IMG/VR virus record: IMGVR_UViG_3300017743_000048 | Location: 1-35,234 of that record | Reading direction: 5' to 3' (one strand) | Source: a virus | Length of the DNA: 35,234 nucleotides | Shown here: positions 1-25,039 of the stretch, in pieces | Layout: each line of letters begins with the position of its first letter | How positions within the stretch are numbered: position 1 is the first letter of the stretch | Made by a program: the position numbers and the translations under genes | Notes under the pieces: model-generated | What the model was told of the DNA's origin: nothing | Databases searched by the model: none | What the model saw: the letters and a program-made list of their open reading frames with translations, nothing else

Positions 1-114
1 GCCGTAAAGTACATTAGTTCTAGCCTCCTCAATCAATAATCCAAGATTCTCACCAGTTGTTGGGTCGTGGTCAAATCTTGGAACATTGTTAGAAGCATAT
101 CTGATAATACCCAT
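1..114 (-). CDS. Fibre-type module with LIEEARTN motif, partial at the left window edge
   Basis: An open frame runs from base 117 off the left edge. Its first ATG is at 114-112, overlapping the last 26 nt of the large fibre gene upstream. The translation carries NNVPRFDHDPTTGE and LGLLIEEARTN. This sequence type is common in phage tail-fibre and adhesin-like proteins, where it usually lies inside a longer protein ahead of a lectin-like or beta-sandwich region. I see no Shine-Dalgarno sequence ahead of the ATG. The frame is +1 relative to the upstream gene and is closed just before the ATG by TGA (120-118). It may be a separate, translationally coupled gene or the displaced continuation of the upstream fibre. 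The coding frame is well supported; the start is uncertain. Confidence 0.6.
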   Translation of the reverse strand, partial: MGIIRYASNNVPRFDHDPTTGENLGLLIEEARTNVLYG

Positions 115-3100
115 TATTCATATGTTTTTTTGCACTATCCGATAAGAAATTAAGTTCAGTAGCACCATCATGATATGCTCCCTTTCCTCCACACATCAAC
201 ATTCCATTTAGCATGAAAATACTAGTTGCTGTTCGGCAACTAAGCATTTTTGCGCTAGCAAATTGACTACCAGTATCATTGTTATCAGTAAATACCATCC
301 ACATCGGAAGGTCTGGATCATCACCATCATAAATTGTGAGAGTTCCTTCTTGCATTACAATCACAGCAACAGCAGGAAACTCTCTTCTGGTTCCTCTAGT
401 TGCTGTTCCTAAGGTTTCATTATACCAACTAGTATGAGTAGTCCTCTTTCTCCATGCACCACCATCAGAGTCCTTACTAGTATCGTATATGAATACATCT
501 ACCGCAGTATCAGAGATTGAAGAACTGATATCTGCTATTTCATAATTAGATCCAGTAATTGACGATGTTGCTGTGAGAATACCAGTTACAACAGCACCAG
601 AAGTATTTGCTTGAACTCTTACTGTTCCACCAACAGAATCTTTGATTGCTGTAGCATCAATACCACTTAACTGTGAACCATCACCAATGAATGATGTTGC
701 AGTTACAACCCCAGTAATAGTAGCACCACCATTAAGTACATTAATACCACTTCTAGCGGTTACAAGTCCTATTGAATCAACATTTGTTACATCCTCATAG
801 GTTAAAGTTCCTGCAATAGAAACGTTACCCGTGAAGTTTGCTGAGGTAGCAGTTAAAGAACCAAATGTAGCAATACCAGATACATTTAAATCATCAGCTT
901 CCAACTGTCCCGTAACATCTAATCCTTGTGAGGATGATGATATTGATGCAATACCAATACTAGTATAAGCAACAAACTCAAGGATATCATTAACAAATGC
1001 TCCTGTTGTCAGAACAACATTAGAACCATCAGTTGCTGTAAATTCAGTTCCATCTAATTTAACACCATTTTGGAATACATCAACATAACCAATAGCATAA
1101 CTTACAGTGAATGATGTTTGACCAGAAGTTGCGGTGAATCTAGTTGTTGATCTAGTTGTGAGGGTGGTATTTATTAGTCCCACACCAGTATAAGCAACAA
1201 ACTCAAGGATATCATCAACAATTGCTCCTGTTGTTAGAACAACATTAGAACCATCAGTTGCTGTAAATTCAGTTCCATCTAATTTATTACCATTTAAAAA
1301 TACATCAACATAACCAACCTCATAAGATACAGAGAATGATGTTTGACCAGAAGTTGCAGTGAATCTAGTTGTTGTTCTAATAGTATTTGGATTACCTAAA
1401 CTACCACTAGTAGGACTATCCCAACTTAAGTTTCCAGAACCATCCGATTTTAGATAAGTATTTGTACTACCATCATCATTTGGAAGAGTTAAAGTATAGT
1501 TTGCTGCTGCACTGTGAGGTGGACCTTGTATTGTAATACCATGACTGTTATTTTCACAGTTTAATTTAAAACGTCCTGCGCCATTACCACCGTTACTAGT
1601 TACACCTTTGAATACAACAGAACCACTTCCATTAGGTGCAAAATCAATATCACCATTGGAAGTAGAAACAATATCTTTTCCATTTACATCGAGATTTCCA
1701 CCTAATTGAGGCGCAGTGTCAACTACAATTGAATTGCTACCTCCACCGGCGTACCCTACAATTTGTGTGGTTGTAATACCAGTTAGTGCAGATCCATCTA
1801 CTGCGGGTAATGTTGATGGGAATCTAGCATCAGGGATGGTTCCTGAATCAAGTTCTGAAGCATCAAGTGTAGTAAGAGAAGCACCAGAACCACTAAATGT
1901 AGTTGCAGTTACCACTCCAGTAATATTGGCACCAGTTGCAGTTACAACCCCAATAATACTAGCACCACCAGTTTTAATATCAATCCCTTTGCGGAAAGTA
2001 CCAATACCCAGTGAGTCTACGTTAGTTACATCATCATAAGTAACTGTTCCAGCAATAGTAATGTTTGCTGCACTTATATCATTAACAGTAAGATTTCCAG
2101 AAATTGATAAATCATTTGCAAATGTAGATACTCCAGAAACATTTAATCCAGTAGTTATTCCTGCTAACTCTAGTCCTGTAATTCTAGTAGTATTATTAAA
2201 TGTAGCAGCAGTGTTAGTAATAATATTGTCAGTTGATGCTACACCAGTTAATCCAGATCCATCACCACTGAATGATGTTGCAGTTACAACTCCAGTAATA
2301 TTGACGCCATTTAGTCCCGTAATTAAATAAGGAGTATTTACTACATTTGAGTGAGTAATAACAGAATTACCCATATAACCATGAGCACTACATTGATAAT
2401 GAAGAACTGCAGGTGTAGTGTCAGTAATTATAATTTCGGTATATGTTGCAGTTGTCGTTACATTAGTAGTATACGAAGTTGTCTTATCTGCCTCAAGATA
2501 AAATCTAAATGGATGACTAGACATGTCACCCGAACTTAAAGTAAACCTATAAGTTCTACCAGGAGTTAAATGTAATATTGGTGATTCAACACCATCTACA
2601 TAATACGCATTACCAGAACCACCACTGTATCTGTGATCAGATTTAGCAGCAACAGTTACTGAATAATTTTTAGTAGTTGTTGAGTGGGGTGTAGTTAATT
2701 CACTTAATTTTGCACTACTTGCAGTTAGATTTGTGAATGTAGAAACTCCAGATACATTTAAGTTATTTGATATTAATACATCTCTACCAATAGTTACATC
2801 TGTACTTATAGCAACTATACTTGCATTTAGATTTAAGTTGTTTGGACTTGTAATTGTGGGAGTTCCACCAGTTTGAGTTGTAAATTGACTTGCTGTTACA
2901 ACTCCACTAAAGTTACCATTTCTACTTACGATTAAATCTTTTGTTACAGTAAGATTTTCTCCAACTGTTGCATCTTTAGTTAGTGTTAGTGTACTTGCAG
3001 TAGCAACATTAGTTACAAACAAATTATTGTTTACATTTAACTCATCATCAACAACCAAATTACCTACTACTCTACTTAGACCGTGAACATCCAATACATA

Positions 3101-4816
3101 TGAAGAACTTGCTGCATTTGTAGATATTCCAACATTGGCAGTTGTATGAATTCCATTTGAACCTGAAGACCAATAAGTTATTCCACCAGATCCACTTTCA
3201 TCTAGGATATGAATAACACCACCCATATTACCATGGGAAGTACATTGATAATAAAGTTTATTAGGAGCATCAAATTGAACATCCCAAATTAATGTTCCAT
3301 TACTTATATTATTATTAGTGATTCCATCATTATATTGAGTTCCAGCAGATCCATTTGGAGTGCTCTGAATTCTAAATGGGTGAGCACCCATATTGTTAGT
3401 AAACTTATATTTTTGCCCTCTTACCAAATATATTGTAGGATCAGCTTCCGCACCAGTCAATCCTGGTCCAGAGAATGTATAGTCTTGAATAGAGTTAGAT
3501 CCTAAAGTCCACTCAGAAGTGTATGTTGCAATAGTAGCAACTCCAGCATTATTTGCGTAGTTAGATGCTTGAGCAGTGACTGTAGCAATTCCAGATCCAA
3601 GATCTACTGATAAATTATCTCCAAAGTTAATAGTTGCTGCAGTTCCTACAGTGACTCCACTATCTTTAACCTGAACACCACTTCCTGTAGAAGTAATATT
3701 TGTTAGTCCAGATCCATCACCGACAAACTGAGTTGCTGTTAATATTCCTGATATTTCAGTATCTGCATTAATTTCAAGTGTTGGATCAGTTGTTGTTATA
3801 ACATTTGTTTGTAGATTATTTACTGCTAATCTAAATTGAGCAGTATCATAATTAAATGAATTATCTGCACCTAAAGGTCCACCATTATTAAATTGAATAT
3901 TTCCAGTAGTTCCTGCTGCACCAGAAATTCCTCCTCCACCACCAGAAGAAGTAACAGTTACTACTCCAGCAGAAATAGGAGAAACACTGATATTGTCACC
4001 AAAATCAATAGTTGCTGCAGTGCCAACAACAGCACCAGAATCTCTGATTTGTACACCAGTTCCAGTAGCAGTAATATTAGTTAATCCAGAACCATCTCCA
4101 GTAAAGTTTGTTGCAGTAATAACTCCAAGAACTTTAACATCACCAGTTATACTTAAAGCACTCTCTGGATAATCTGAATTTATACCAACGTTGGTGTTAG
4201 TGTAAATGCCAACAACAGCTTCAGTCCAGAGACTATCTCCACCAATAGTAATATTTCCTCCACCACCACCTCCTCCAGTGTAATTTGAGGTAGTATTATA
4301 GGAGAAAATATCAATCATTTCTCCACCATCTAATTCATCATTAAATATAATCGTAAATCCATCAGATGCCTGATACTCGCTAGCATTTAGTAAGACACCA
4401 TTTACAAATATATCAAGAAAATTAGTATTATATGAAGTTATTATTTGGGTTTGACTAGAAACACCAACTGTACTAAATCCAGTCCTTAGAGTTGGAAAGG
4501 ATGCCCAAGTAACTCCTGTTCCAGTTGATCTAATATACGAACCATCATCACCTAAAGTATTTCCAATAGAGATAGAATCTACAAACAGGTTTGAAATACT
4601 TACTGATCCAACTCCAATATAATCTGTAATCAGTGTTCCACCAATACTTACAGATCCATCAATTCTTACTGAACCACCAATTCCAATATTATATTCAGTT
4701 GCAAAAGATGTTCCTACACCGACTCTACCTAAAACTTCTAAAACGTTTTCATTTTCGGTGTAACCCTTAACACCTAACTTTAAACTTTTCTGTCTTCCCG
4801 ATAAAAACTTAGGCAT
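89..4816 (-). CDS. Large mosaic tail-fibre-like structural protein with two cupredoxin-like domains
   Basis: The 1575-aa protein is a string of fibre modules with no signal peptide or membrane segment. The N-terminus (MPKFLSGRQKSLK) leads into glycine- and isoleucine-rich repeats. A beta module around residues 107-176 recurs twice in tandem near residues 1146-1290 (motif GQTSF, then VDVF.NG). GDGSGLT-type linkers occur about five times. Residues about 434-538 and 714-823 look like cupredoxin domains, each with HPFR followed by YQC..HG.MG. Residues from about 1436 contain YDTSKDSDGGAWRKR, a module seen in other marine phage fibres, which ends abruptly at the stop codon. The ATG follows the previous gene by 9 nt with only a weak ribosome site. 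It is probably a distal or accessory fibre; the receptor is unknown. The mosaic nature and internal duplications indicate rapid recombination. Confidence 0.8.
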   Translation of the reverse strand: MPKFLSGRQKSLKLGVKGYTENENVLEVLGRVGVGTSFATEYNIGIGGSVRIDGSVSIGGTLITDYIGVGSVSISNLFVDSISIGNTLGDDGSYIRSTGTGVTWASFPTLRTGFSTVGVSSQTQIITSYNTNFLDIFVNGVLLNASEYQASDGFTIIFNDELDGGEMIDIFSYNTTSNYTGGGGGGGNITIGGDSLWTEAVVGIYTNTNVGINSDYPESALSITGDVKVLGVITATNFTGDGSGLTNITATGTGVQIRDSGAVVGTAATIDFGDNISVSPISAGVVTVTSSGGGGGISGAAGTTGNIQFNNGGPLGADNSFNYDTAQFRLAVNNLQTNVITTTDPTLEINADTEISGILTATQFVGDGSGLTNITSTGSGVQVKDSGVTVGTAATINFGDNLSVDLGSGIATVTAQASNYANNAGVATIATYTSEWTLGSNSIQDYTFSGPGLTGAEADPTIYLVRGQKYKFTNNMGAHPFRIQSTPNGSAGTQYNDGITNNNISNGTLIWDVQFDAPNKLYYQCTSHGNMGGVIHILDESGSGGITYWSSGSNGIHTTANVGISTNAASSSYVLDVHGLSRVVGNLVVDDELNVNNNLFVTNVATASTLTLTKDATVGENLTVTKDLIVSRNGNFSGVVTASQFTTQTGGTPTITSPNNLNLNASIVAISTDVTIGRDVLISNNLNVSGVSTFTNLTASSAKLSELTTPHSTTTKNYSVTVAAKSDHRYSGGSGNAYYVDGVESPILHLTPGRTYRFTLSSGDMSSHPFRFYLEADKTTSYTTNVTTTATYTEIIITDTTPAVLHYQCSAHGYMGNSVITHSNVVNTPYLITGLNGVNITGVVTATSFSGDGSGLTGVASTDNIITNTAATFNNTTRITGLELAGITTGLNVSGVSTFANDLSISGNLTVNDISAANITIAGTVTYDDVTNVDSLGIGTFRKGIDIKTGGASIIGVVTATGANITGVVTATTFSGSGASLTTLDASELDSGTIPDARFPSTLPAVDGSALTGITTTQIVGYAGGGSNSIVVDTAPQLGGNLDVNGKDIVSTSNGDIDFAPNGSGSVVFKGVTSNGGNGAGRFKLNCENNSHGITIQGPPHSAAANYTLTLPNDDGSTNTYLKSDGSGNLSWDSPTSGSLGNPNTIRTTTRFTATSGQTSFSVSYEVGYVDVFLNGNKLDGTEFTATDGSNVVLTTGAIVDDILEFVAYTGVGLINTTLTTRSTTRFTATSGQTSFTVSYAIGYVDVFQNGVKLDGTEFTATDGSNVVLTTGAFVNDILEFVAYTSIGIASISSSSQGLDVTGQLEADDLNVSGIATFGSLTATSANFTGNVSIAGTLTYEDVTNVDSIGLVTARSGINVLNGGATITGVVTATSFIGDGSQLSGIDATAIKDSVGGTVRVQANTSGAVVTGILTATSSITGSNYEIADISSSISDTAVDVFIYDTSKDSDGGAWRKRTTHTSWYNETLGTATRGTRREFPAVAVIVMQEGTLTIYDGDDPDLPMWMVFTDNNDTGSQFASAKMLSCRTATSIFMLNGMLMCGGKGAYHDGATELNFLSDSAKKHMNNGYYQICF
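963..1374 (-). repeat. Two-copy tandem repeat of 75 codons in the fibre gene
   Basis: Bases 963-1149 and 1188-1374 are near-identical, offset by exactly 225 nt, which keeps the reading frame. Each copy encodes a module with RFTATSGQTSF, a VDVF.NG motif and a hydrophobic ending LEFVAYT. A third, diverged copy lies near the protein N-terminus (about 4290-4495). The high DNA identity suggests recent duplication or ongoing gene conversion. Confidence 0.85.
2332..2691 (-). repeat. Cupredoxin-like domain, copy shared with the 8568-8933 segment
   Basis: This segment encodes fibre residues of roughly 709-828. It reads from PHS and YSVTVAAK through HLTPGRTYRF and SSHPFRFYLE to HYQCSAHGYMGN. The His in HPFR and the Cys-x2-His-x2-Met string match the ligand order of blue copper proteins. 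The encoded protein and the DNA closely match the segment at 8568-8933 in a neighbouring gene, with a two-codon length difference. Copper binding is inference from the motif. Confidence 0.75.
3200..3520 (-). other. Second, divergent cupredoxin-like domain within the fibre gene
   Basis: Fibre residues of about 434-538 have the same plan as the other copies but diverged sequence: YTFSGPGL, IYLVRGQKYKF, GAHPFRIQS, then LYYQCTSHGNMGGVI. The candidate ligands His, Cys, His and Met are all kept. This fits an older module acquisition followed by divergence, not a fresh duplication. Confidence 0.65.
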
Positions 4817-7368: not shown

Positions 7369-9909
7369 TTAAAATGATCCAGCATCTATAGTTATATTTT
7401 CTAAATGTCTTTCTGTACCAGTGCAAGAAATTACTTGTGATTGTCCTGCACAATCATTAACCCAAAGTGCTGCAATTTCTACAGGAGCATATGCAGTGTA
7501 AGTTAATTGTGGATTTGAGTTACCAGTTCCTCCACCATCTGCTACTTGAGAACCAAATATAAATCTTGATACGCTACTTTCCCAAGCAACTGCTGCTTTT
7601 TTAGCAGATCCATCATTATAGTTGAATAAAACACCAAGATCCCAAGTAGTTGCAGATGCAGGAGCAACACCATTTACGATACCAAGTTCAATAGTTCTGT
7701 CTTCTACTGTAATACTATTTGTATCAACTTGGGTAGTCGATCCTTGTACAAATAAACTTCCAGCAACCGTCAAATCATCATCAACATAAACCATTCCAGT
7801 AGCAGAGTCTAATACTAGATTTCCTGCTGAAGTTTCAATTTCATTATTTGCAGAAGTTCCAAGTCTTAGATCATTAATATGTGCTGCAGCATTAGCATCA
7901 ACTAATGCATTAAATGTCGTTACACCAACAACAGATAGTCCATCATCAACAATAACTGTTCCACCATCAGAATCTAAAGTTAAATCACCAGAACTAGTAT
8001 CTATCTCATTATCACCTGAAACACCAATTTGAACATTATCAATTGCTGCTCCACCATCTAAATCCAAATCTCCAGTTAGATCCACATTAGAACTGAATGT
8101 GGCAATACCAGCAACACTCAAAGTTTGACTGACATTTACTTCGTCTAATTGAGTATACCCATCAACATCTAAGTCTGAATTTAGATCAACCGCAGAAGTA
8201 AATGTCGCAATACCAGTAACACTTAAGGTTTCACTAACATTTACTTCATCAAGTTCGGTATATCCATCAACATCTAAGTTTGAATTTAAATCAACTGCAG
8301 AGGTAAATGTTGCTATTCCAGCAACACTCAAAGTCTGACTGACATTTACTTCATCTAACTCAGTATATCCGTCAACATCTAAGTCGGCATTGAGGTCAAC
8401 ATCAGAAGTAAATGTAGCAATACCAGTAACACTTAAGGTTTCGCTAACATTTACTTCATCTAACTCAGTATATCCATCAACATCTAAGTCGGCATTGAGG
8501 TCAACATTGGAAGTAAATGTTGCTATTCCTGCAACAGAAATAGTCTCTTCAAAGTTTGCAGCATAGGGTGTATCTATTGCATTTGAGTGAGTAATAAAAG
8601 CATTACCCATGTAACCATGAGCACTACACTGATAATGAATAACTTTAGGTGTAGAGTCTGTAATTACAATTTCAGTGTATGTTGCTGTTACAGTTACATC
8701 ATTTGTATATGCATGAGTTTTATCAGCATCCAAGTAAAATCTAAATGGATGAGCAGACATGTCACCCGAACTTAAAGTAAATCTATAAGTTTTACCAGGA
8801 GTTAAATGGAGTATAGGTGATTCTACACCATCAATAGCATAACAACTACCACTACCAGTTCCATTATACCTATGAGCTGCTGTTTTAGAAACAACAGTTA
8901 CTGAATAGTTTTGTGTAGATGCAGAATGTGGTGCTTGTAGATATGAAAACCCTTTTAAAGAAGTTGTAGTAGTTACTCCAGAGTTATTAACACCTCCAAC
9001 ATCAGCACTTCCACTGAGAGATAAACTTCTCCATCTTTTAGATGCAGAACCTAAATTGTAAGTAGCATCTACATCAGGAGAAAGATCAGATGCAAATTCT
9101 CCACCAACAACAATATTATCAGTGTCACTATCACCTAAATTGATAATACCACCTTCAAAAGTTACATTACCTACAAAAGTAGAAACACCAGTTACTCTTA
9201 AATCATCATCAATTACAGTTTGACCAGTAGCAGAATCTAAAATTAAATTTGATGTAAGAGTATCAATTTCATTTGCTGCTGTTACACCAATTTGAATATC
9301 ATTTGATTCTAAACCTGCTAGGAAAGTTGCAATTCCGGTAGCACTGACATTAGTGAATGATACTGCAGCTCCAGGGACTGGTACACCTTTTATTCCAGTA
9401 TAAACTGCTCCACTAATATAAACACTCTTTCCAGATATTCCACTCGGTAAATTTGTTCCAATAAAGTTTAAGACACCCGATTTATAATCAAAAAACCATT
9501 CGTCATTATTTCCAGATCCTGCTCCAAATACCTGAGTACCGCTAGTTGCAGCATTTGCTGCATCACCAGAAGTATGTAAATATGCTTTAATTAAATAGGT
9601 AGAACCAATTTCTGGTGGAATCCAATCTACAGTTCCTGATTTCCAAGTTCTATTTGTTGATGATGTTATATCTGCAGTACACTCTACAGGATTTGAAGTA
9701 AGATATACTGTAACTTCGTTAGTGCTACTACTAGGAATAGTCGAAGGAATTTGGTATGATTCTGCCCATACTTCCTCACCTCGTAGTAGTAGAGGAGAAG
9801 AAATTGATTCATTGGTAGCATTCTTGATGGAATTAACATCAGTTTTTACCCTACCATATCCAATCTTCTTCCAAAGATAATCAACCTTTTGAGTGTCCGT
9901 AATTGCCAT
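7369..9909 (-). CDS. Fibre-like structural protein with 35-aa tandem repeats and a cupredoxin-like domain
   Basis: The 846-aa protein has a globular N-terminus (MAITDTQKVDYLWKKIGYG, then FDYKSGVLNFIGTNLP) of a type found in cyanophage virion proteins. Residues about 335-444 form a cupredoxin-like domain (HLTPGKTYRF, SAHPFRFYLD, HYQCSAHGYMGN). Residues about 455-620 are four 35-aa repeats (VTGIATFTS.VDLN.DLDVDGYT) plus a degenerate fifth, probably a beta-rich shaft. NEID/NEIE modules occur three times (near residues 215, 645 and 690). The C-terminus, with SITVEDRTIELG and WDLGVLFNYND, resembles a conserved end domain of such proteins. TAAGGAATC about 10 nt before the ATG supports the start. 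It is likely an accessory tail or head fibre; its exact virion location cannot be told. Confidence 0.8.
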   Translation of the reverse strand: MAITDTQKVDYLWKKIGYGRVKTDVNSIKNATNESISSPLLLRGEEVWAESYQIPSTIPSSSTNEVTVYLTSNPVECTADITSSTNRTWKSGTVDWIPPEIGSTYLIKAYLHTSGDAANAATSGTQVFGAGSGNNDEWFFDYKSGVLNFIGTNLPSGISGKSVYISGAVYTGIKGVPVPGAAVSFTNVSATGIATFLAGLESNDIQIGVTAANEIDTLTSNLILDSATGQTVIDDDLRVTGVSTFVGNVTFEGGIINLGDSDTDNIVVGGEFASDLSPDVDATYNLGSASKRWRSLSLSGSADVGGVNNSGVTTTTSLKGFSYLQAPHSASTQNYSVTVVSKTAAHRYNGTGSGSCYAIDGVESPILHLTPGKTYRFTLSSGDMSAHPFRFYLDADKTHAYTNDVTVTATYTEIVITDSTPKVIHYQCSAHGYMGNAFITHSNAIDTPYAANFEETISVAGIATFTSNVDLNADLDVDGYTELDEVNVSETLSVTGIATFTSDVDLNADLDVDGYTELDEVNVSQTLSVAGIATFTSAVDLNSNLDVDGYTELDEVNVSETLSVTGIATFTSAVDLNSDLDVDGYTQLDEVNVSQTLSVAGIATFSSNVDLTGDLDLDGGAAIDNVQIGVSGDNEIDTSSGDLTLDSDGGTVIVDDGLSVVGVTTFNALVDANAAAHINDLRLGTSANNEIETSAGNLVLDSATGMVYVDDDLTVAGSLFVQGSTTQVDTNSITVEDRTIELGIVNGVAPASATTWDLGVLFNYNDGSAKKAAVAWESSVSRFIFGSQVADGGGTGNSNPQLTYTAYAPVEIAALWVNDCAGQSQVISCTGTERHLENITIDAGSF
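8048..8545 (-). repeat. Tandem array of 105-bp units (35 aa), four units plus a degenerate one
   Basis: The unit encodes LSV.GIATFTS.VDLN, then .DLDVDGYT.LDEVNVS. Two adjacent units are offset by exactly 105 nt (8161 versus 8266). Units alternate between VNVSETLSVTG and VNVSQTLSVAG, so the pattern has a two-unit higher order. That suggests the array grew by duplication of unit pairs. Confidence 0.85.
8568..8933 (-). repeat. Cupredoxin-like domain, copy shared with the 2332-2691 segment
   Basis: The segment encodes PHSASTQNYSVTV through to YMGNAFITHSN. Candidate copper ligands are the His of SAHPFRF and the Cys, His and Met of CSAHGYM. The corresponding segment in the 1575-aa fibre gene is strongly similar at DNA level, with long exact stretches such as around ACATGTCACCCGAACTTAAAGT in plus-strand reading, so a duplication or exchange links the two genes. 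This copy has an extra Cys in the loop GSCYAIDG. Confidence 0.75.
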
Positions 9910-9922
9910 TTCGTTTGATTCC

Positions 9923-12900
9923 TTATGTTATGTTAAGTGATGTTATAGATTGGCCAGAAGTAAGTGCAATTCTAATCAAACAAACATTACTAGTAGCATT
10001 ACTTAAGTTTTCACTTCCTAAAGTCATACTGTAACTTCCACTCAGAGAAGTTCCAGAAGCAATAACGTCACCAGAAGTAGATGCACAACCATCACTTCCA
10101 TTACCACCATTACCAACATTTCCACCGGGAACACCTGAACCCGCAAATGGGGTATCAGATCTAATCCAACCATTTAAAGTACTAGTATTATCTATACTAG
10201 TTCCAGGTGCAGCAATCCAGAGACCTGCAATACCTGAAGATGATGTAATATTAATATTAAAGTTTGCAACAACTTGTCTTCTAAATGCAAAGGTAAAGTA
10301 CTGAGTTCCAGTGTCTCCACTTCTATCAGGACCTGCTGGCAAATAACCAGAGGAGTAATCGGTTACATCATATTTAATATTACCAATTCTAACTGAAGCC
10401 TCTTTTGTCCCAGAAACGCCTAAATCTGAAGATTCTGTATAAACGCTATTGGTGTAGAAATTAGTAGAATTTGTATATGTAGGATTATTAGTTGTTTCAG
10501 CACTAAAATCAAATATTCTTATACCATCATCAGTATAAGTTCCGTTTCCTAAACTATTAGAGATATCAATTGCAATCTCACTAATTCCACTTTGAGATGA
10601 TTTATGTACTTGTATATTAGTAGCAATATCACTACTATATCCACCAACCCCGTTAACATTTCTAGCGCGAGTTTTTATTCTATCTATGGTTCTTACAGAT
10701 GATGACGTAATTGAAACAGTTAAGGAACTAATTGCATATGGTGAAGAAGTTCCAACATTGACAACAGGAGTTCCCCCACTCAACATTGTAGAAGCACCAT
10801 CAATTTGAGAATAATTATAATCAGAATTTGTAATTGCAGAAGAAGAAGTACCTTCTTGATTAGTACCACTATCAACTTCAACGATATTAGATTGATTTGT
10901 ATAAGTTTGTCCAACAAGGTTGGTAATTGTAACTCCAGTCAATGTCAAAGAAGGAGATCCAGAATTATAGTAAGGAATACCTGAAATGTATCTGTAAGTT
11001 CCAGCAACGTTTTCAGTTAATGTTGCTCCAGATATACTAGTAGAAGGTGATGAAGTTAGATCATCTTTTACAAATTCAACCGTATTTGTATTTCCAGTAG
11101 AACTATGAAGTAGTTGCATACTGTTTAATCCAGTACTTATACTAGAAGCTGCTTTTGAAATTCTTGCTTTGAATCCTTTATATAAACCGGGATAGTAAAT
11201 ACTACTCGCAAAAGATGTAGAAGATCCACCAGTGTTTAGTAACTGATAATCACTTTCAGAATCAATTATGAGACTTGTATAAGTTCCAGAATCATTTCCA
11301 CTTGTGAATGCTTTAGAACCGTCTGCAGACTGATTTAAGTTTGCTGTAAGAGTTCCAGAGTCAGCGTTATATGCAAATGTAGTAATTGGACCTGCAGTTG
11401 CAGTTCCAGAGGTAATTCTGGTTACATTATCTCCAGTAGATAACACTGCACCACCAGTATTATCCGTAAATCCAGAAGCAAGTTTTGGCGAAGTTCCAGT
11501 GGAGGAAACATTTGATAATGTTTTAGAACTTAATCCATTAGGAGCTGTTGGAGCATCGTCATAAACTTTTAGTGAAACTGAATCACTTGTAGGTATAACG
11601 TTAGGATCAGCAGTATTGTGATTATTGAGAGTTAAAATTAATGTATCTCTAGAAGTAGAACTATTTGTTCCTTGATTCCATGTATGTATAAGTCTAGATC
11701 CCGCCACACCACCATTAACATTATCATCTGCAATGGCATCATTTGTAGAACCATCTCCCCAATTCATTGTATAGTCAACAGTAGCACTTGCAGTGTTAGT
11801 TGTCGCATTTTCTAGATAAAGTGGTTGACCTTCAACTACATAGAAATCATTTCCACTAATTGGAGATCCACCAGTTGCTGCTCTGTAAAGTGAGAAATCT
11901 ACAACTGGGTTTGGAGTGTATACTGTAATATAATTTGCTTTTGAAACAGTTTGACTACTTCCAGCACCTACGCCATTAATATTTTTTGCAGTAGCAGTGA
12001 TTGAGAATAATCCACCTAGTGCTTCATTATACGTATGGGAGATTGTTGAAGAAGATGCATTTAATGTAGTTGTACCATCACCCCAAGTAATATCATAACG
12101 ATTTGGATTACCATCAAAAGTTACTGCCAAACTTACATTTAATGGAGATCCACCAACAGTTGGAGTACTCGCAAAATCTACATTAGATACTGCAGTATTT
12201 CCAAGAATATTGTATGCTAATTCATTTAAATCATCAATGCCGTCAACAATTCTTGTAGTATTGGTGAAAGTATTTAAAGCACCTCCAGTAACAATATCAC
12301 TATCAATAGGAGCTCCTAAAGTTAAATCTCCACCTTCTCCATGGAATGAGGTTGCTGTGGTAACTCCAGTAATATTAACATTTGATGATAATTGAACATC
12401 AGATTCAAAAGTTGATATTCCAGAAACTCTTAATATACCACCAACATTAGCATTTTTTTCTATACCTACACCACCTTCAATTACTAATGAACCAGTGTCT
12501 TTATTATCAGATTGCGTAGTATCTGCAATTAAAACCTGAGAACTGAAAGTTGATACACCTGCTACATCAAGATTAGTTAGAGATAATGACGGGATAATTG
12601 AAACCCAACTTAACTCACCATCACCATTAGTTGTCAGTAGTGCTGCATTTACTGGATTCTCTGGGAATGTATATGTAGTTACACCAGATAAAGTATCTGG
12701 AGATTTTAGATTAATCGAATTATCTCCATCTTTATCTACTAAGGAGAATTTTAGAGAAGTTGTTCCATCTTCTCTATCCCAATATCGATGAGAACCAAAA
12801 AATTTATTGTCAGCAAGAGAACTTGTCAATCCAACAAAAAGATCATATCTATCTGTCGTAAATCCAGGTTCACCAGATCTCAGTCCTGGTAATTGAGTGT

Positions 12901-12937
12901 ATTGTCCTCTTTTAAACTGTAATACTGGAGTAGTCAT
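9923..12937 (-). CDS. Fibre-like protein with PKD-like domains
   Basis: The 1004-aa protein opens with VLQFKRGQYTQLPGLRSGEPGF and DRYDLFVG. This resembles the short N-terminal attachment domain of phage tropism or fibre proteins of the Mtd-N type. Residues about 35-235 hold fibre linkers (VAGVSTFSSQV, VTTATSFHGEG). Two PKD-like (Ig-fold) domains follow: about 241-343 (ITWGDGTT, ISHTYNE, FSITATAKN) and about 343-465 (MNWGDGST, LIHTWNQ). The C-terminal 130 residues (YFTFAFRRQVVANF, GLWIAAPG, then a glycine-rich loop) are of a type I associate with cyanophage virion proteins of unknown function. AAGGAATC a few bases ahead of the ATG supports the start. PKD domains often mediate binding to carbohydrate or protein surfaces, so adhesion is a reasonable inference. 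Confidence 0.8.
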   Translation of the reverse strand: MTTPVLQFKRGQYTQLPGLRSGEPGFTTDRYDLFVGLTSSLADNKFFGSHRYWDREDGTTSLKFSLVDKDGDNSINLKSPDTLSGVTTYTFPENPVNAALLTTNGDGELSWVSIIPSLSLTNLDVAGVSTFSSQVLIADTTQSDNKDTGSLVIEGGVGIEKNANVGGILRVSGISTFESDVQLSSNVNITGVTTATSFHGEGGDLTLGAPIDSDIVTGGALNTFTNTTRIVDGIDDLNELAYNILGNTAVSNVDFASTPTVGGSPLNVSLAVTFDGNPNRYDITWGDGTTTLNASSSTISHTYNEALGGLFSITATAKNINGVGAGSSQTVSKANYITVYTPNPVVDFSLYRAATGGSPISGNDFYVVEGQPLYLENATTNTASATVDYTMNWGDGSTNDAIADDNVNGGVAGSRLIHTWNQGTNSSTSRDTLILTLNNHNTADPNVIPTSDSVSLKVYDDAPTAPNGLSSKTLSNVSSTGTSPKLASGFTDNTGGAVLSTGDNVTRITSGTATAGPITTFAYNADSGTLTANLNQSADGSKAFTSGNDSGTYTSLIIDSESDYQLLNTGGSSTSFASSIYYPGLYKGFKARISKAASSISTGLNSMQLLHSSTGNTNTVEFVKDDLTSSPSTSISGATLTENVAGTYRYISGIPYYNSGSPSLTLTGVTITNLVGQTYTNQSNIVEVDSGTNQEGTSSSAITNSDYNYSQIDGASTMLSGGTPVVNVGTSSPYAISSLTVSITSSSVRTIDRIKTRARNVNGVGGYSSDIATNIQVHKSSQSGISEIAIDISNSLGNGTYTDDGIRIFDFSAETTNNPTYTNSTNFYTNSVYTESSDLGVSGTKEASVRIGNIKYDVTDYSSGYLPAGPDRSGDTGTQYFTFAFRRQVVANFNINITSSSGIAGLWIAAPGTSIDNTSTLNGWIRSDTPFAGSGVPGGNVGNGGNGSDGCASTSGDVIASGTSLSGSYSMTLGSENLSNATSNVCLIRIALTSGQSITSLNIT

Positions 12938-17357: not shown

Positions 17358-17597
17358 CTATCTATTTAATTGATTTTTGACAACTATCTCCAAAAGATTT
17401 TTCAACTCAGATAAATCATTTCTTATAGTATTAACTTCACTTTTTAATTCATCAATTTCAGTACTCTTTTTAAGATTTACATTTCTTCTTTTTAAATAAT
17501 TTTCATATTCATTAGAATCTGCATTTACAATTGAGTTAGTACTCGAATCTCTATACAGATTCTTATGATCTTTTACTTTTATGTAGTTTTTTTTCAT
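17358..17597 (-). CDS. Short coiled-coil protein, 79 aa
   Basis: The protein begins with the basic segment MKKNYIKVKDHKNLYRDSST and NSIVNADSNEYENYL, followed by a coiled coil (about residues 47-75: EIDELKSEVNTIRNDL, SELKNLLEIVV). Proteins of this plan lie ahead of gp13 in related cyanomyoviruses; I know no assigned function. The ATG overlaps the stop of the preceding giant gene by 4 nt (ATGA), indicating translational coupling. An assembly or bridging role at the neck or baseplate is only inference. The A8 run after the start codon keeps the frame as read. Confidence 0.8.
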   Translation of the reverse strand: MKKNYIKVKDHKNLYRDSSTNSIVNADSNEYENYLKRRNVNLKKSTEIDELKSEVNTIRNDLSELKNLLEIVVKNQLNR

Positions 17598-20500
17598 AAT
17601 GCGCCAAGAGCGATTGCTCTTAGATTTCTAACTTGTGGTACATAAGAAGAGTTAGAAGTGGATCCGACGATCTTAATTCTAAACTCAGTGAAAGATGAAA
17701 TATCATCTATTGTATATTCAAACTCAATAAATTCAGTGGATCCTGGTTGGAAAGAGTAAGAATCAGTTTTCTTAATTTTTATATCAGATGTACCATCACT
17801 TAATGAAGTATTAATCGCTTCACCAGATTGATAATTTACATATCCTGGGAATGGTGTAAATTGAGCACTTCCTCCAGTAGAATAGAATAATCTTAAATCA
17901 GAATCTTCATTTACATATGCATCAAGAATAACTTTAATTCCTGAAGATGGATTTGTTAATTTAATGGGTTTTGTTACATATGTGAATAGATGTGGATCAT
18001 TTTTTATAGATGCCACAGAAGAATCGTCAGCATAATTAACATTAGGGTCATTAACGACATTAGAAATCAAAGCAACATCAGTTCTAGATAAGTCGATTAT
18101 AGGAGTTAACTTTGTATTTAAAGTTTTAAATGTAGCAGTAAATGAGAGAGATTTATTATATGCATAATCTCCTAAGAATTGAAGTTCGTTATCTTCTGAT
18201 CCAATTATCCTTGTTGATTCAAAATAATTTATTTTGTTATTTTGAACAAATGATAGTGGAGCAGTCTGCCAAGAACTTACATCAGATCCAATTGATGTTC
18301 CCGTTATACTATCCATTGTATAAGATATATTTGTATTAGGAACAAGCATTTCACTAATACTAGGTACAATAGCATTGTATAGTTTGTTAAATGACATACT
18401 AACGTTCTTTTCACCTATTTGAGAACTTGTTTTATTGAGTTTTAAATCAGTTCTTGTTCCCATATCAATTTTAATATAGTAAGAATCTTTTTTAATTGGA
18501 TCTGCTACAGTAACATCTCTTAAGTCATGAACTTTATTAATTCTTCTCAAAGAAACTCCACTAATTTCATATTTTGATACTATACTTCCCGAGTAGTGAG
18601 ACTGTGTTTTAGTATTATCTTGTGCTCTTTGAACACCAGTTAATTCATTGTCTGTAAAACCCGTATAAGTTAATAACTCGTCGCCAATTTTTACATAACC
18701 AGGATTTATAGCACTAATCGGTCTATTTTCAAAAGTTCTATAGTTAACTGTATTAGTTACAGGTAAGTTTCCTACAGCATCAGATAAGAAATCTGAACTT
18801 AATTTAATTGATTCAATATCACCTACAACACCAGTAATTTTGGTAAAGTTGACATTTGAGTACATACCATGATTTTTATGATGAACTTTAATGTGAGTTC
18901 CATCAGTTACAACTATTGGAGCATCATTAATATATACTCCTCCACCATTTAACAAAGTTTTAGTTAATCCACTATTTAAATACTCAAGTTGGAATACTGA
19001 ACTCTGTATAAATTCACCTTGAACATTATCAATTTCAATTTCTTTTCTAGATAAAACTTCAGAAACAGTTATAATACCATTTACTCCAACAGGAACATCT
19101 CCCAAAGAAGGAACTAATAATACATCTCCAACATTGTATCCACTACCACCATTACCATTGCTTGGAATCGAAGCCGCATTAATAACACCATTAGTAACAG
19201 TTATATCTGCAGTAGCATTGTTACCTTTTCCACTTCTAGTGATTAGTGATACATTTTCAAAAGTGAATGATCCACTACCAGGAGTGTATCCAACTCCAAC
19301 ATCAGTTACTGAGAATGAAGTTATACTTCCACCGTAACCAATAACTGTTCCAGTTGCAGTTCCAACTCCTGTTCTATCTTGTAAAATAGTAGATCCAAAA
19401 GTAAAGTCTGCACTTGTTATTGTAGAAGATGTAGAAACTCTAATTCTGTTGGATTCAATCTTTAATGGATCCCGTCTACTAATCTTTAATAATTCGTCAG
19501 GTTTAGAATTAAGTAACTGAACAGATCCAGGATTTGAAGAAAATTCTGCTCTATACATTTCAAATTTTAAATCTTCATACTGACTAGGAGTCCAAGTCGA
19601 AGCATTTTGGGACTTAAATAAAGATCCTAAAATAGGTTGAGAACTAACAAGAACTTGATTTTGTTGATTTTGTGAAGTTGAGATATCAATTTCACCCATT
19701 TGAGAAATCCAAACTTCATAATCTGTAGAATCGGAAAGTAGTACTAAAGCATATTCTTTTTTAGATTCCAAATAAACTGGAGATTCAAATGCAATAGTTG
19801 TAGATACTGTAGAATCTTCCGAAAGATTAATTTGTTCAGGTAATACATCAACTTTTGAGAATGGAAGAATTTTCTTGGAAGGTAATCCAAGTTCAACTTC
19901 TCTAAGTTCGACCATAACTGGAAGTTTCTCTGCTTTACTCTTAAAGAAAACATCAACTTTAGTTACAAATATTCCAGTATCATCCCAGACAGTAAATGTT
20001 TGTGCTAGAGGGTCTGTTCCAGGTGGTCTTGGAGGACTTGGAGTACTTGGGGGTGCTGGTGGTGGTGGTGGGGGTGGAACTGCTTGCTGATCAAGAATAA
20101 CTTCAAAGTTTATATTTTGAGATTCTACAAAATCAGTATTAACTTCAACTTCAGCATTTCTAATAGATAGTGTAGTATTCTGAGATACATCCGTAGAACC
20201 TTGACTATAGAATATAGACTCGGCAAATGATTTTATAGATCCAGGAACTTGTGAATTTGTTCTATTACTGGTTAATCTTAAAGTAGATCTTCCAGTTTCA
20301 AATTTAGGATTTCCACTTACTGTAGGGTCAGGAACTCTAAAAGATCCAGTTAGTGATCCAACTTCATCAGAAATTAAATCAACACTAATGACTGTTGCTT
20401 CTGCTCCACTAGTTTCACCTCTTATAATCATTCCCGGTCTTAAGTTACCATTAAAAATAGTCTCAGTCTCTTCACTTAAACTAAAGGTATCTATATTTAA

Positions 20501-23500
20501 TGTTATACTATTAGTACTATAATCTGAAGCAACATTTGTGCTTCTTTCGTAGATATTACTTCCATAAAATCTGGTTGGTGATAAGTATGACCCTTCTTTA
20601 TGACTAGAACCAGAAATTCTGAAAACTCCACTTGAATCAAAAGTAACAGCATTTTGAGTCGTAATGACATCAGAAGATCGCGCAGTTTCACCTACTTGGA
20701 AAGTTCCAGATATCATTTGAATTTGAACTAATTTATTGAAACAGAAATCTGATACGTCAACACCATCAAAGTATGGATACATCTTTGTAAATGGTTTTAG
20801 ACCTGAACAAACAAACTCAATATTAATAGGTCTCATTACTGTAATGAGTTCCCTACTAACAATGCGATCACCTAAAGATTCTGATTGAATATTTTCACTA
20901 ACTGAGTATTGTAGTCCATCTCTAACTTGTCCTAGTTCTATAGTATTTGCAGTTGTAATAGTCCCCCATTGCCCTGCAGTAGTGTCAGATCTGTCTGTAG
21001 TAGTTTCAATACCTTGAGAAATAAGTCCTGTTGTTTCCCAGGAATCCCAAAGAACAGGACTTACACCAGATCTTAGTCCATCTTCCGAATCTACAACATC
21101 AACTTGCAACGCACTTGCAATAGCATCAAATGAACCATCAAGCGTTACACTATTAGGTTCAATAACTCTTGTGTCAATCCAAACATCAGTATCTGGATTT
21201 AATTTAACGGATCCAGTGTAATCTTTCACAAGGAATGGAGTAACACTTATTATTCTAGTTGCAAAGGGTTGTTTTATCCAACTCTCTTCTGTGTAGTTAA
21301 GTGTTAGTAGATCACCAGTTCTCTTTATATTATTTGCAAGTAATCCGGCAAATCTATAGTCTTGTTTTTGATTTACCGTTGTTTGCGAGGAACTGGACAT
21401 ACTATCATTTGAAACTTCAAGTTTCATATGGGTAGTATTATGAGCAGGTCTCAAAATACCTCTTTTAGTATCAATACTATTTCTTATTCCTGCAGAAGTA
21501 TCTTGAGCTAATGTAGTTGTAAAATTATCTACAAAGAATCCAGATTTAAATCTATTAAGTCCCGTTCCATCATCTACAAATAGATTCTCAGTATTTGATT
21601 CAAGTAATGATAAACTAGTTATCTTTTCTATAGTTTGGAGACGGTTATCTATTCTTGAGATATCTTTCATTTGATATCTCTTATGCTTAGTTAATACAAT
21701 TCTAGCATCACTGACTGAATAGAGATATGCTGGGAGAAATACATCAGCGACTCTCATAGAACCAGGTACAGGTTCTAGTATTTTTGGATCGTCTTTAGAA
21801 GTTCCAGATACTACTGTAAATACTTTATTTTTGTCTATAAAAATACTATCATATCTTGGTAGATAGTAACTAAAATTCATAACTAATGAATCTGATTTAG
21901 AAACGATATGAGGTGTACTATGAACTCCTCCAGCAAAAGATCTTCCAAGAAACTCAAAAGGAGATCTTGATCCTGATGATAATGTGTATGTACTAACTCT
22001 TGGTCTAAGATCAACTAAATCTGTCGTTCTGATACCATTAATCTTTGGTATTTCTTTTCCATAGTCAAATGCTGAGTAAGATTCTACTGTTGTAACATCT
22101 CCTGAATCTGATGCATCATAATAACCTCTAGAGAAAAATACTTTAAGTTTTCTGGTTGGAATATCAACTTCTGGTTTTCTTACTAGTTTTGAATATTCAA
22201 AATGACTTAATTTTTGTCCACTTTCTAAAGTAAATGATGATGTAACATCTTTACTAGTAATGACTATATCATTAAGTTTTGCAGAAGTAGAAGATGTCTT
22301 AAAATCTAAAAGTTCTTCTGGTATAAAGATACTATCATTTAAGTAAGTAAATCTGGATTGGGTATCATTCAAACTTCCCATATACATTGCAATAGCACCG
22401 GAAGTTCTTCCAACAATTTTTTCTCCTATAATTAAATCTGAGGTAGTTCCTGTAGACCCAGACATATTTGCTAATGTTATATAAGGAGAGTCTGGATCAG
22501 CAGAACTAACTGACTCATAAATTGCATGTATTTTTACGATGTCAGGTTGAAATATTGCAATTTCTTCATCTTGAACTCTAGTTCCATATGGATAGTTATC
22601 ATAAATTAGACCATCCCTCAAACTATTTTGAGTAGATCCAGATGATTTATTTGAAGACGCAGATAAAATAGTAGATCCAACAACTTCCTTAAGTTTTGTT
22701 TTTGATGAAATTTTATTTTTTCTTAGAGTTACAATTAATCTACAATCAAGATCATAACCCCCTAAGTTATTAATTTTTAATTTTGTTGATCCATCTGTAA
22801 TTTGAAATTTATCTTCCGTCAAAACTTCATAAGTATTATTACTTGTAATTAAAGTATATCTTTCTGGACTAAAAGGTAAAAATGTTTCATTTGGACTTGC
22901 TGAGATAACACCAGTAGAGTTATTAACAATATTTACATTAATTACTCTCCGAATTACCATACTAGCCTTATTAAATTCTACAGAAGCAACATTCGGTTTA
23001 GGTAATGCGCTAAACAAAGAATTATTATCTGCAGGATTTCCAGTATATTCAGTTTTAGAAAGTTTTGATTCTATTACTTTAAAGTCACTTACAACTAGTT
23101 GACTAGAAGGTAACGTGCTATAGTTTACTCCAGATACTGCTGTAATTTCAGTAACAGATATTGTAGTAAGTGTTTTAGAAGAAACTATAGCATACGTTGG
23201 GTCTGATTGTGTTGGAGTACTAAAAGATACAATATCTCTAACTTTAACTTTTTGAACTTTTAATGGATCAATAGTTACTACCGAAGTAGATCCAGATTTG
23301 GCTCCAATAGTAGCAGAACCAATTTTAAATTTAACACTCTGAACAATATCTGCATTAAATTGTCCACCAGAAGCATTTGAGAAAATTGATTTTATATCAG
23401 AAAATCCATATTTTGTGAGATCAGTAATATATCTTCTCTCAAAATTTTCATCATTATCTGAGATAATTTTTATCGGTTCATTAGGAACAAACTCCCCTTC

Positions 23501-25039
23501 GACACCATAAAGAATTAATGTGGTAGATGAACTAACGGCAGTTCTTAAAAATGCTCTTGCACCGGAATTTTCACCAATAATTCTGGATGGTGTTTGTAAA
23601 GTAATAGAATTATTTACAGTTAAAAAAGTGTACAATTGAACATCAAAAAGTGAAATACCCCATTTATTTTTATCTGGTGTAGAGGAATCATATGATCCAC
23701 TATCTAAGTAGAAATCATATGCTCTAGCAACGCCAACTTCAGTTCCAGATTGTGCGCTACTAGAAGATCCAATTCTGGTATTCATTAAGGACAGGTATTC
23801 TGTAGTATTAAGTCCTATTAATGGTGCTCCATAAGTTCTATTCAGTTTAAATACAGGTCCAAAATCAAAATTTATGGCCTGTCCACTTACATTTTTAGTC
23901 GATCTAGGTTTATTTACATCTACAAAAGAGTGTGAGATTGTTTCACATTCGTATCCCTTTACATATGCTTTTCCTGGACTTATTTTAAAAGTAGCAATGG
24001 ATTCATCAGGAACATTTCCAGATCTTGTTAGATTTCCTTCTTTAAAAACTCCATCTGAATTGAGTCCATCATTGAGACTATTTTTCAAAGAAACATTAAA
24101 AGATTTTACGTAGTAATCTCCCGATTCATCATAAGTTCTTCTAGCTAGTTCATCTCCAATTATATTATATTCAGTTTTAGTTTCTACTTTTAATAATTCA
24201 CCATTTCTAACTTCTGCTAGTTGAATGAAATTTTTATCATCAAAATTATCTAAAGATTTTTTAGCTAATTTTGCAGATATTTTAAGTCTATCTGCACCTG
24301 GGGCTGCATAGTTAGTAAAACCTTTAGCATTATCAGTCAAACTTTGATCATCATAATAATTTACAAGACTTTCTTCGACACTTAGTCCTAATCTATTACT
24401 AGCAAATCCATCATATTGATTAAGTATTAAAATATCTTTTGCTACTTTTACAAAATGACCTCTAATAAAGTAAATACCTTCTTCTATAGTAAACGCTGAT
24501 GATTCAGAAACTGAATTGGTAATTTTGGTATTTGCAAATCCCTCTCCAACAGAAATAAAAACATTACGAGTTATTTCTATGGCAGTAGTTGCTTCAATAA
24601 TTTCATTATCAAAGAAATTAATTTGAGTGGCATCATTAGAAGTTTCAATGTATGAAACATATAATGTTATAGAATTTCTTTCTGACTTTTGCGCTTCAAT
24701 TACAGATAAAACTTTAGCAGTAACTCCAGAACTTCTTCCTTTAATGGTTAAACCAACTAATTTATCTGTATAGGAAGTTACAGGGATTCCAGCAAATATT
24801 GGATTTATCTCTACAGCAGTTATACTAGTGTAATTTGTTTGACCAGGAATTACAACAGAACCTTCTTTAAAAAAGTGACTACCAAAACGCTCAACTTGAT
24901 TCTGAAGTATGGTTTGTAGAGTAGTTAGTTCTCTAGCCTGAATAGGATATGATGGTTTGAATAAAACTTTATGAAAGTTTTTATCCTCATTAAAATCATC
25001 AAAATAAGGACTTACATTAAGATTGGTTTCTTGAGGCAT
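17594..25039 (-). CDS. Giant baseplate-associated protein in the gp9/gp10 position (DUF4815 type)
   Basis: The 2481-aa protein starts MPQETNLNVSPYFDDFNED. The N-terminal pattern HKVLFKPSYPIQARELTTLQ and GSHFFKEGSVVIPG is that of the DUF4815 family found in marine T4-like phages. It extends through GFVVDVNKPRST-like strands to about residue 600. Around residues 1651-1672 a proline-rich linker (VPPPPPPPAPP) separates two halves. It is followed by DPLAQTF, a common mark of this family, and a beta-rich C-terminal half with GVGYTPG/GSGYNVG repeats and YVKIGDELLTYTG. The position right after gp8 and before gp13 is where T4 has genes 9-12, so it probably does the work of the wedge/tail-pin or fibre-connector proteins. 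It lies 6 nt after gp8. Confidence 0.8.
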   Translation of the reverse strand: MPQETNLNVSPYFDDFNEDKNFHKVLFKPSYPIQARELTTLQTILQNQVERFGSHFFKEGSVVIPGQTNYTSITAVEINPIFAGIPVTSYTDKLVGLTIKGRSSGVTAKVLSVIEAQKSERNSITLYVSYIETSNDATQINFFDNEIIEATTAIEITRNVFISVGEGFANTKITNSVSESSAFTIEEGIYFIRGHFVKVAKDILILNQYDGFASNRLGLSVEESLVNYYDDQSLTDNAKGFTNYAAPGADRLKISAKLAKKSLDNFDDKNFIQLAEVRNGELLKVETKTEYNIIGDELARRTYDESGDYYVKSFNVSLKNSLNDGLNSDGVFKEGNLTRSGNVPDESIATFKISPGKAYVKGYECETISHSFVDVNKPRSTKNVSGQAINFDFGPVFKLNRTYGAPLIGLNTTEYLSLMNTRIGSSSSAQSGTEVGVARAYDFYLDSGSYDSSTPDKNKWGISLFDVQLYTFLTVNNSITLQTPSRIIGENSGARAFLRTAVSSSTTLILYGVEGEFVPNEPIKIISDNDENFERRYITDLTKYGFSDIKSIFSNASGGQFNADIVQSVKFKIGSATIGAKSGSTSVVTIDPLKVQKVKVRDIVSFSTPTQSDPTYAIVSSKTLTTISVTEITAVSGVNYSTLPSSQLVVSDFKVIESKLSKTEYTGNPADNNSLFSALPKPNVASVEFNKASMVIRRVINVNIVNNSTGVISASPNETFLPFSPERYTLITSNNTYEVLTEDKFQITDGSTKLKINNLGGYDLDCRLIVTLRKNKISSKTKLKEVVGSTILSASSNKSSGSTQNSLRDGLIYDNYPYGTRVQDEEIAIFQPDIVKIHAIYESVSSADPDSPYITLANMSGSTGTTSDLIIGEKIVGRTSGAIAMYMGSLNDTQSRFTYLNDSIFIPEELLDFKTSSTSAKLNDIVITSKDVTSSFTLESGQKLSHFEYSKLVRKPEVDIPTRKLKVFFSRGYYDASDSGDVTTVESYSAFDYGKEIPKINGIRTTDLVDLRPRVSTYTLSSGSRSPFEFLGRSFAGGVHSTPHIVSKSDSLVMNFSYYLPRYDSIFIDKNKVFTVVSGTSKDDPKILEPVPGSMRVADVFLPAYLYSVSDARIVLTKHKRYQMKDISRIDNRLQTIEKITSLSLLESNTENLFVDDGTGLNRFKSGFFVDNFTTTLAQDTSAGIRNSIDTKRGILRPAHNTTHMKLEVSNDSMSSSSQTTVNQKQDYRFAGLLANNIKRTGDLLTLNYTEESWIKQPFATRIISVTPFLVKDYTGSVKLNPDTDVWIDTRVIEPNSVTLDGSFDAIASALQVDVVDSEDGLRSGVSPVLWDSWETTGLISQGIETTTDRSDTTAGQWGTITTANTIELGQVRDGLQYSVSENIQSESLGDRIVSRELITVMRPINIEFVCSGLKPFTKMYPYFDGVDVSDFCFNKLVQIQMISGTFQVGETARSSDVITTQNAVTFDSSGVFRISGSSHKEGSYLSPTRFYGSNIYERSTNVASDYSTNSITLNIDTFSLSEETETIFNGNLRPGMIIRGETSGAEATVISVDLISDEVGSLTGSFRVPDPTVSGNPKFETGRSTLRLTSNRTNSQVPGSIKSFAESIFYSQGSTDVSQNTTLSIRNAEVEVNTDFVESQNINFEVILDQQAVPPPPPPPAPPSTPSPPRPPGTDPLAQTFTVWDDTGIFVTKVDVFFKSKAEKLPVMVELREVELGLPSKKILPFSKVDVLPEQINLSEDSTVSTTIAFESPVYLESKKEYALVLLSDSTDYEVWISQMGEIDISTSQNQQNQVLVSSQPILGSLFKSQNASTWTPSQYEDLKFEMYRAEFSSNPGSVQLLNSKPDELLKISRRDPLKIESNRIRVSTSSTITSADFTFGSTILQDRTGVGTATGTVIGYGGSITSFSVTDVGVGYTPGSGSFTFENVSLITRSGKGNNATADITVTNGVINAASIPSNGNGGSGYNVGDVLLVPSLGDVPVGVNGIITVSEVLSRKEIEIDNVQGEFIQSSVFQLEYLNSGLTKTLLNGGGVYINDAPIVVTDGTHIKVHHKNHGMYSNVNFTKITGVVGDIESIKLSSDFLSDAVGNLPVTNTVNYRTFENRPISAINPGYVKIGDELLTYTGFTDNELTGVQRAQDNTKTQSHYSGSIVSKYEISGVSLRRINKVHDLRDVTVADPIKKDSYYIKIDMGTRTDLKLNKTSSQIGEKNVSMSFNKLYNAIVPSISEMLVPNTNISYTMDSITGTSIGSDVSSWQTAPLSFVQNNKINYFESTRIIGSEDNELQFLGDYAYNKSLSFTATFKTLNTKLTPIIDLSRTDVALISNVVNDPNVNYADDSSVASIKNDPHLFTYVTKPIKLTNPSSGIKVILDAYVNEDSDLRLFYSTGGSAQFTPFPGYVNYQSGEAINTSLSDGTSDIKIKKTDSYSFQPGSTEFIEFEYTIDDISSFTEFRIKIVGSTSNSSYVPQVRNLRAIALGAL

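Follow-up and report, generated by a model that had tools for sequence, protein, structure and literature searches.

Cupredoxin-like domains with a predicted type-1 copper site in tail-fibre proteins of a T4-like marine phage

Amid the shaft repeats of a tail-fibre protein, a marine T4-like phage probably carries a true cupredoxin as a side domain, with its predicted type-1 copper site intact. The DNA analysed was an IMG/VR record of 35,234 bases (the window), in which a T4-like structural cassette with baseplate wedge, neck/head-closure, sheath stabiliser, small terminase and fibre genes was recognized. Its closest named DNA relatives were cyanophages such as S-SCSM1, S-SM2 and Bellamy, and Bellamy shared the gene order of the window over the neck proteins, the sheath stabiliser, the small terminase and a tail-fibre gene with the cupredoxin-like domain. 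The cassette also contained a conserved giant protein of 2481 aa with no assigned function (phrog_358, 17594-25039), and a 1004-aa protein encoded at 9923-12937 gave weak matches to Mtd_N (major tropism determinant) and PKD, both below the cut-off. The fibre proteins and the domain copies are listed below.

7369..9909, minus strand: fibre protein P0001, 846 aa; ORF matching the PHROG tail fibre family phrog_30742 (E=1.8e-53)
8575..8946, minus strand: cupredoxin-like domain copy A, P0001 residues about 322-445 (AlphaFold pLDDT 91.6; alignment)
8749..8751, minus strand: His387, first ligand candidate of copy A; invariant in 64 diverse copies, codon checked
8608..8628, minus strand: Cys428-x2-His431-x2-Met434 candidate ligand loop of copy A; invariant in 64 diverse copies, codons checked
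89..4816, minus strand: fibre protein P0002 (1575 aa), partly matching phrog_677; holds two cupredoxin-like domains
2345..2701, minus strand: copy B, P0002 residues 706-824 (H749, C809, H812, M815), 76% identical to copy A
3197..3523, minus strand: copy C, gp9-type, P0002 residues 432-540 (H479, C525, H528, M531); AlphaFold pLDDT 89.9 (window:3164-3532)

In the initial annotation of this DNA, a cupredoxin-like domain built into an 846-aa phage fibre had been placed at 8568-8933 from the strings SAHPFRF and CSAHGYMGN. Both strings were found in the ORF at 7369-9909 on the minus strand, the position given for the domain was right to a few residues, and the domain is part of a structural protein, as had been proposed. 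The spacing Cys-x2-His-x2-Met after an upstream His, which had been compared with the amicyanin loop, was also correct for H387, C428 (codon 8626-8628), H431 (8617-8619) and M434 (8608-8610). These residues would form a type-1 (blue) copper site with a short amicyanin-type loop. From its N-terminus, P0001 was composed of a part matching phrog_9417 (function unassigned), shaft-like repeats, the cupredoxin-like domain, further repeats and a C-terminal part, and shaft-like repeats surrounded the domain in P0002 as well. Adjoining copy A, a 105-bp tandem repeat of 4.4 copies (8078-8536) encoded shaft repeats of the form VAGIATFTSxVDLNxDLDVDGYTELDEVNVS, and a near-perfect 225-bp duplication was present at 962-1379 within the gene of P0002.

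The two further predicted copies in the neighbouring P0002 were absent from the initial annotation and were found during the follow-up. P0002 matched PHROG 677 (gp9, baseplate wedge tail fibre connector) with E=6e-32, and no match of P0001 to this profile was obtained. In T4-like cyanophages the C-terminal domain of gp9 is the cupredoxin-like domain, a close subtype to which copy C of the window would belong by its match; unlike in gp9, the domain of the window lies inside longer fibre proteins and in three copies.

The conservation of the candidate ligands was evaluated at several depths. All of H, C, H and M were invariant in 62 distinct close relatives, in 64/64 diverse viral copies with identity down to 21% and a mean column identity of 48%, and in 130 distinct copies. 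Among the 152 distinct domain matches in hand when the profile was built, cellular kin as well as phage sequences, 147 kept all four ligands, and the remaining five comprised fragments, one domain interrupted by an insertion and one degenerate copy. Since few search patterns touched ligand residues (1/6, 0/2 and 1/2 across the pattern sets), the search did not impose this invariance. A chance origin of the motif was ruled out by 20,000 composition-preserving shuffles of both fibre proteins, as only 2 of them held at least one H-x20-60-C-x2-H-x2-M, compared with three in the real proteins.

Degenerate domains devoid of ligands were detected in P-HM2 gp7 (residues 897-994) and S-CREM2 gp130 (12625-12840), which indicated that a copy can lack the site and still retain the fold. 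They give some support to the idea that the domain is a vestigial or purely structural sandwich, one that uses no metal and retains the four residues through common descent or for packing. This is nevertheless very improbable, given that four scattered residues of ligand type stay invariant while identity drops as low as it does among the viral copies. The S-CREM2 virion contains gp130 (PMC10665884); as the domain of this protein is degenerate and ligand-free, its presence was rejected as proof of an intact site in a virion.

Searches with single sequences did not suffice to assign the fold, and profiles were therefore needed: phmmer against the PDB and a search of NCBIfam returned no match, and Pfam returned just sub-threshold matches to Cu-oxidase and At5g54830. 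Across family members the Pfam domains Copper-bind, Cu-oxidase and At5g54830-like recurred. Copper-bind (PF00127) matched 15/64 members at E<=0.1 with a best value of 4e-4, which did not reach the curated cut-off, and copy A of the window itself had no PF00127 match. PF25489 (At5g54830-like domain) matched 28/64 members (best E 8e-6), single members reaching just sub-threshold scores; no account of its function was found in the literature searched, and its search against 59 cyanobacterial genomes gave no match, with the controls equally silent. When the family profile was compared with PDB sequences, copper nitrite reductase was found at 6e-4, followed by plastocyanin, pseudoazurin, multicopper oxidase and amicyanin, and the ligands were in register in those printed alignments that span them. 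The exceptions outside the cupredoxins were phosphatidylinositol phosphodiesterase entries (E about 0.04) and a few others. In hhalign, the profile was aligned to cyanobacterial plastocyanins with a probability of 70% (P=4e-5) and all four ligands paired, whereas none of 30 column-shuffled controls exceeded 0.9%. An upstream His, and a single loop ahead of the final strand that bears Cys, His and an axial Met, were seen in every one of the 64 copies and in the plastocyanin pairing.

Structure prediction and fold comparison, which had been suggested earlier as a check, yielded confident models whose best PDB matches were blue-copper proteins. The AlphaFold model of copy A had a pLDDT of 91.6 and a pTM of 0.84, and that of the gp9-type copy 89.9 and 0.81. 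With 8-9 strands, the models agreed with a Greek-key sandwich of about 8 strands, at a TM-score of only about 0.5. In copy A the His stands just before a middle strand, the Cys ends the penultimate strand and the Met precedes the last one, so the ligands are placed as in cupredoxins. By Foldseek, rusticyanin was the top match of copy A (E 8e-4, TM about 0.5), with some non-copper sandwiches also at E about 0.01; for the gp9-type copy, nitrite reductase, CueO and rusticyanin were obtained from 2.6e-5, with 120 PDB matches at E<=1e-3. Multicopper oxidases were also among the best structure matches of the two modelled subtypes. TM-scores against PDB cupredoxins were only about 0.4-0.5, and the fold is therefore a divergent cupredoxin fold. 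Ligand invariance, the PDB profile search, AlphaFold with Foldseek, and hhalign all agreed with the cupredoxin-like fold and type-1 ligand set originally proposed. The copy-A model also matched "beta-sandwich proteins" of Pithovirus/Marseillevirus (LCPAC/LCMAC) in BFVD (A0A481Z6J5, A0A481Z7Q7 and A0A481YY19) with TM 0.73-0.76 by query length, and these predicted models suggest that the same fold occurs in giant viruses.

Blue copper proteins are a classic group. The phage domain resembles amicyanin, plastocyanin, pseudoazurin and rusticyanin in predicted fold class and in ligand set and order, and shares the C-x2-H-x2-M loop length with amicyanin. It differs from them by its location within a virion fibre protein, by an identity of 11-20%, by having no known redox partner and by a copper site that is predicted only. 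Zinc can occupy cupredoxin sites. Another metal, most likely zinc, might be held in the virion, or the site might be mostly empty in copper-poor seawater with the fold acting only as a scaffold. We consider this unlikely, because His-Cys-His-Met, ordered and spaced in this way, is the ligand set of type-1 copper, and the Met is kept as strictly as the other ligands. From the ligand pattern, it appears quite likely that the candidate site binds copper in the virion, and the copper would perhaps be picked up outside the cell, after lysis.

The domain is not peculiar to this fibre and is common in marine T4-like phages. The copy-A type was found in 88 phage records and the gp9-type in 349, mostly Synechococcus and Prochlorococcus phages, in which the proteins were often annotated "baseplate wedge tail fiber connector". 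In S-ShM2, Syn19, S-WAM1 and S-SSM7 the domain was the very C-terminus of gp9, and it was also present in the Pelagibacter phages Mosig and Baldr, the Methylophilales phage Melnitz and the podovirus P-GSP1. A subtilisin-like protease of S-H9-1 (1321-3327) also ended in a cupredoxin-like domain. Outside phages, the genome collection gave only 3 close matches, some at least of which are probably viral sequence within cell assemblies, and a contig binned under a Euryarchaeota MAG that carries the phage-type domain looks viral. The plasmid search returned one weak match, to an annotated copper-binding protein.

In a tree of 46 rows, the copy-A types clustered together (97/97), and a third set was formed by P-SSM2 723, MED4-213 679 and S-H9-1 561, several with an SGTDRNG-like motif. 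This set joined two cupredoxin-like proteins of cellular assemblies with support that was not firm (85/75). The phage profile also found, at 6e-11, a small secreted cupredoxin (148 aa) of a Prochlorococcus assembly that passes the PF00127 cut-off; it differs from the phage domain in being a free protein with a signal-peptide-like N-terminus and a loop of C-x2-H-x4-M or longer. The domain may plausibly have been captured more than once from secreted cupredoxins of cells. Plastocyanins formed a clade of their own (100/99), well removed from the fibre domains. A recent capture of host plastocyanin (petE) and its fusion into the fibre might be expected from the separate petE gene that cyanophages carry (PMC2984593), as the initial annotation had rightly stated, and from one phage record that names a gp9-type protein PetE. 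It is hardly credible, however, since the separate clade, an identity to plastocyanin of about 16% and an amicyanin-like loop in place of the plastocyanin C-x2-H-x4-M all contradict it; tree and loop length largely refuted such a fusion, and the domain did not qualify as a plastocyanin. The gene annotated PetE in S-SCSM2R (2788-3294) encoded a gp9-type domain protein and not plastocyanin, which calls for caution with petE annotations in phages, as some of the genes so named encode fibre or connector proteins.

Given the location of the domain in fibres and connectors, a role at the host surface was considered. Iron-binding HxH motifs in fibres of marine phages have been proposed under the Trojan horse hypothesis (PMC11705849), and the present domain is similar in bringing candidate metal-binding residues to a marine phage fibre, and different in metal set, fold and residues. 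As a copper counterpart of this iron "Trojan horse", the site could act at the host surface by docking on copper-handling or electron-transfer proteins, or by exchanging electrons or copper during adsorption. The placement in fibres and connectors, the strictly kept ligands and the precedent of the HxH fibres are in its favour. However, the site has no known partner, the domain is placed within the shaft repeats or at the connector and not at a known receptor tip, and the hosts are very diverse (Synechococcus, Prochlorococcus, Pelagibacter and Methylophilales), so that such a role is rather unlikely, and copper or redox reactions at the surface of the host are conceivable but unsupported. The bound metal may instead mainly stabilise the compact sandwich for contact between fibre and baseplate or fibre and cell, without electron transfer. 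The most likely function, and also the least certain part of our interpretation, is that of a side domain stabilised by metal, by which the fibre attaches or contacts the host. In the case of the HxH fibres, the metal of T4 gp37 was seen in a crystal structure, whereas the phage cupredoxin-like site is a predicted one.

Homology, fold class, ligand set, spread among phages and fibre or connector gene position were all shown by computation. No paper on a cupredoxin domain in a phage fibre, cyanophage or virion was found by a search covering only a minority of subscription papers and preprints; the phage-fibre cupredoxin domain is conserved and widespread, and apparently undescribed. T4 fibres are trimers, with six per virion. 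If this also holds here, the three copies would amount to up to 54 sites per particle. That working blue-copper centres, possibly dozens per virion, sit in the fibres and gp9 connectors of marine T4-like phages and are used in infection can be put forward only tentatively. The conserved ligands suggest that copper may be present in the fibres of virus particles, in this phage as in hundreds of others from the sea. If copper is bound, phages that infect some of the commonest ocean bacteria would hold a redox-capable metal centre in their fibre machinery, the metal dependence of phage adsorption would become directly testable, and a viral copper pool would join ocean trace-metal chemistry. If the centres work in infection, these abundant particles would constitute a biological copper ligand pool and copper would be a cofactor of host attachment.
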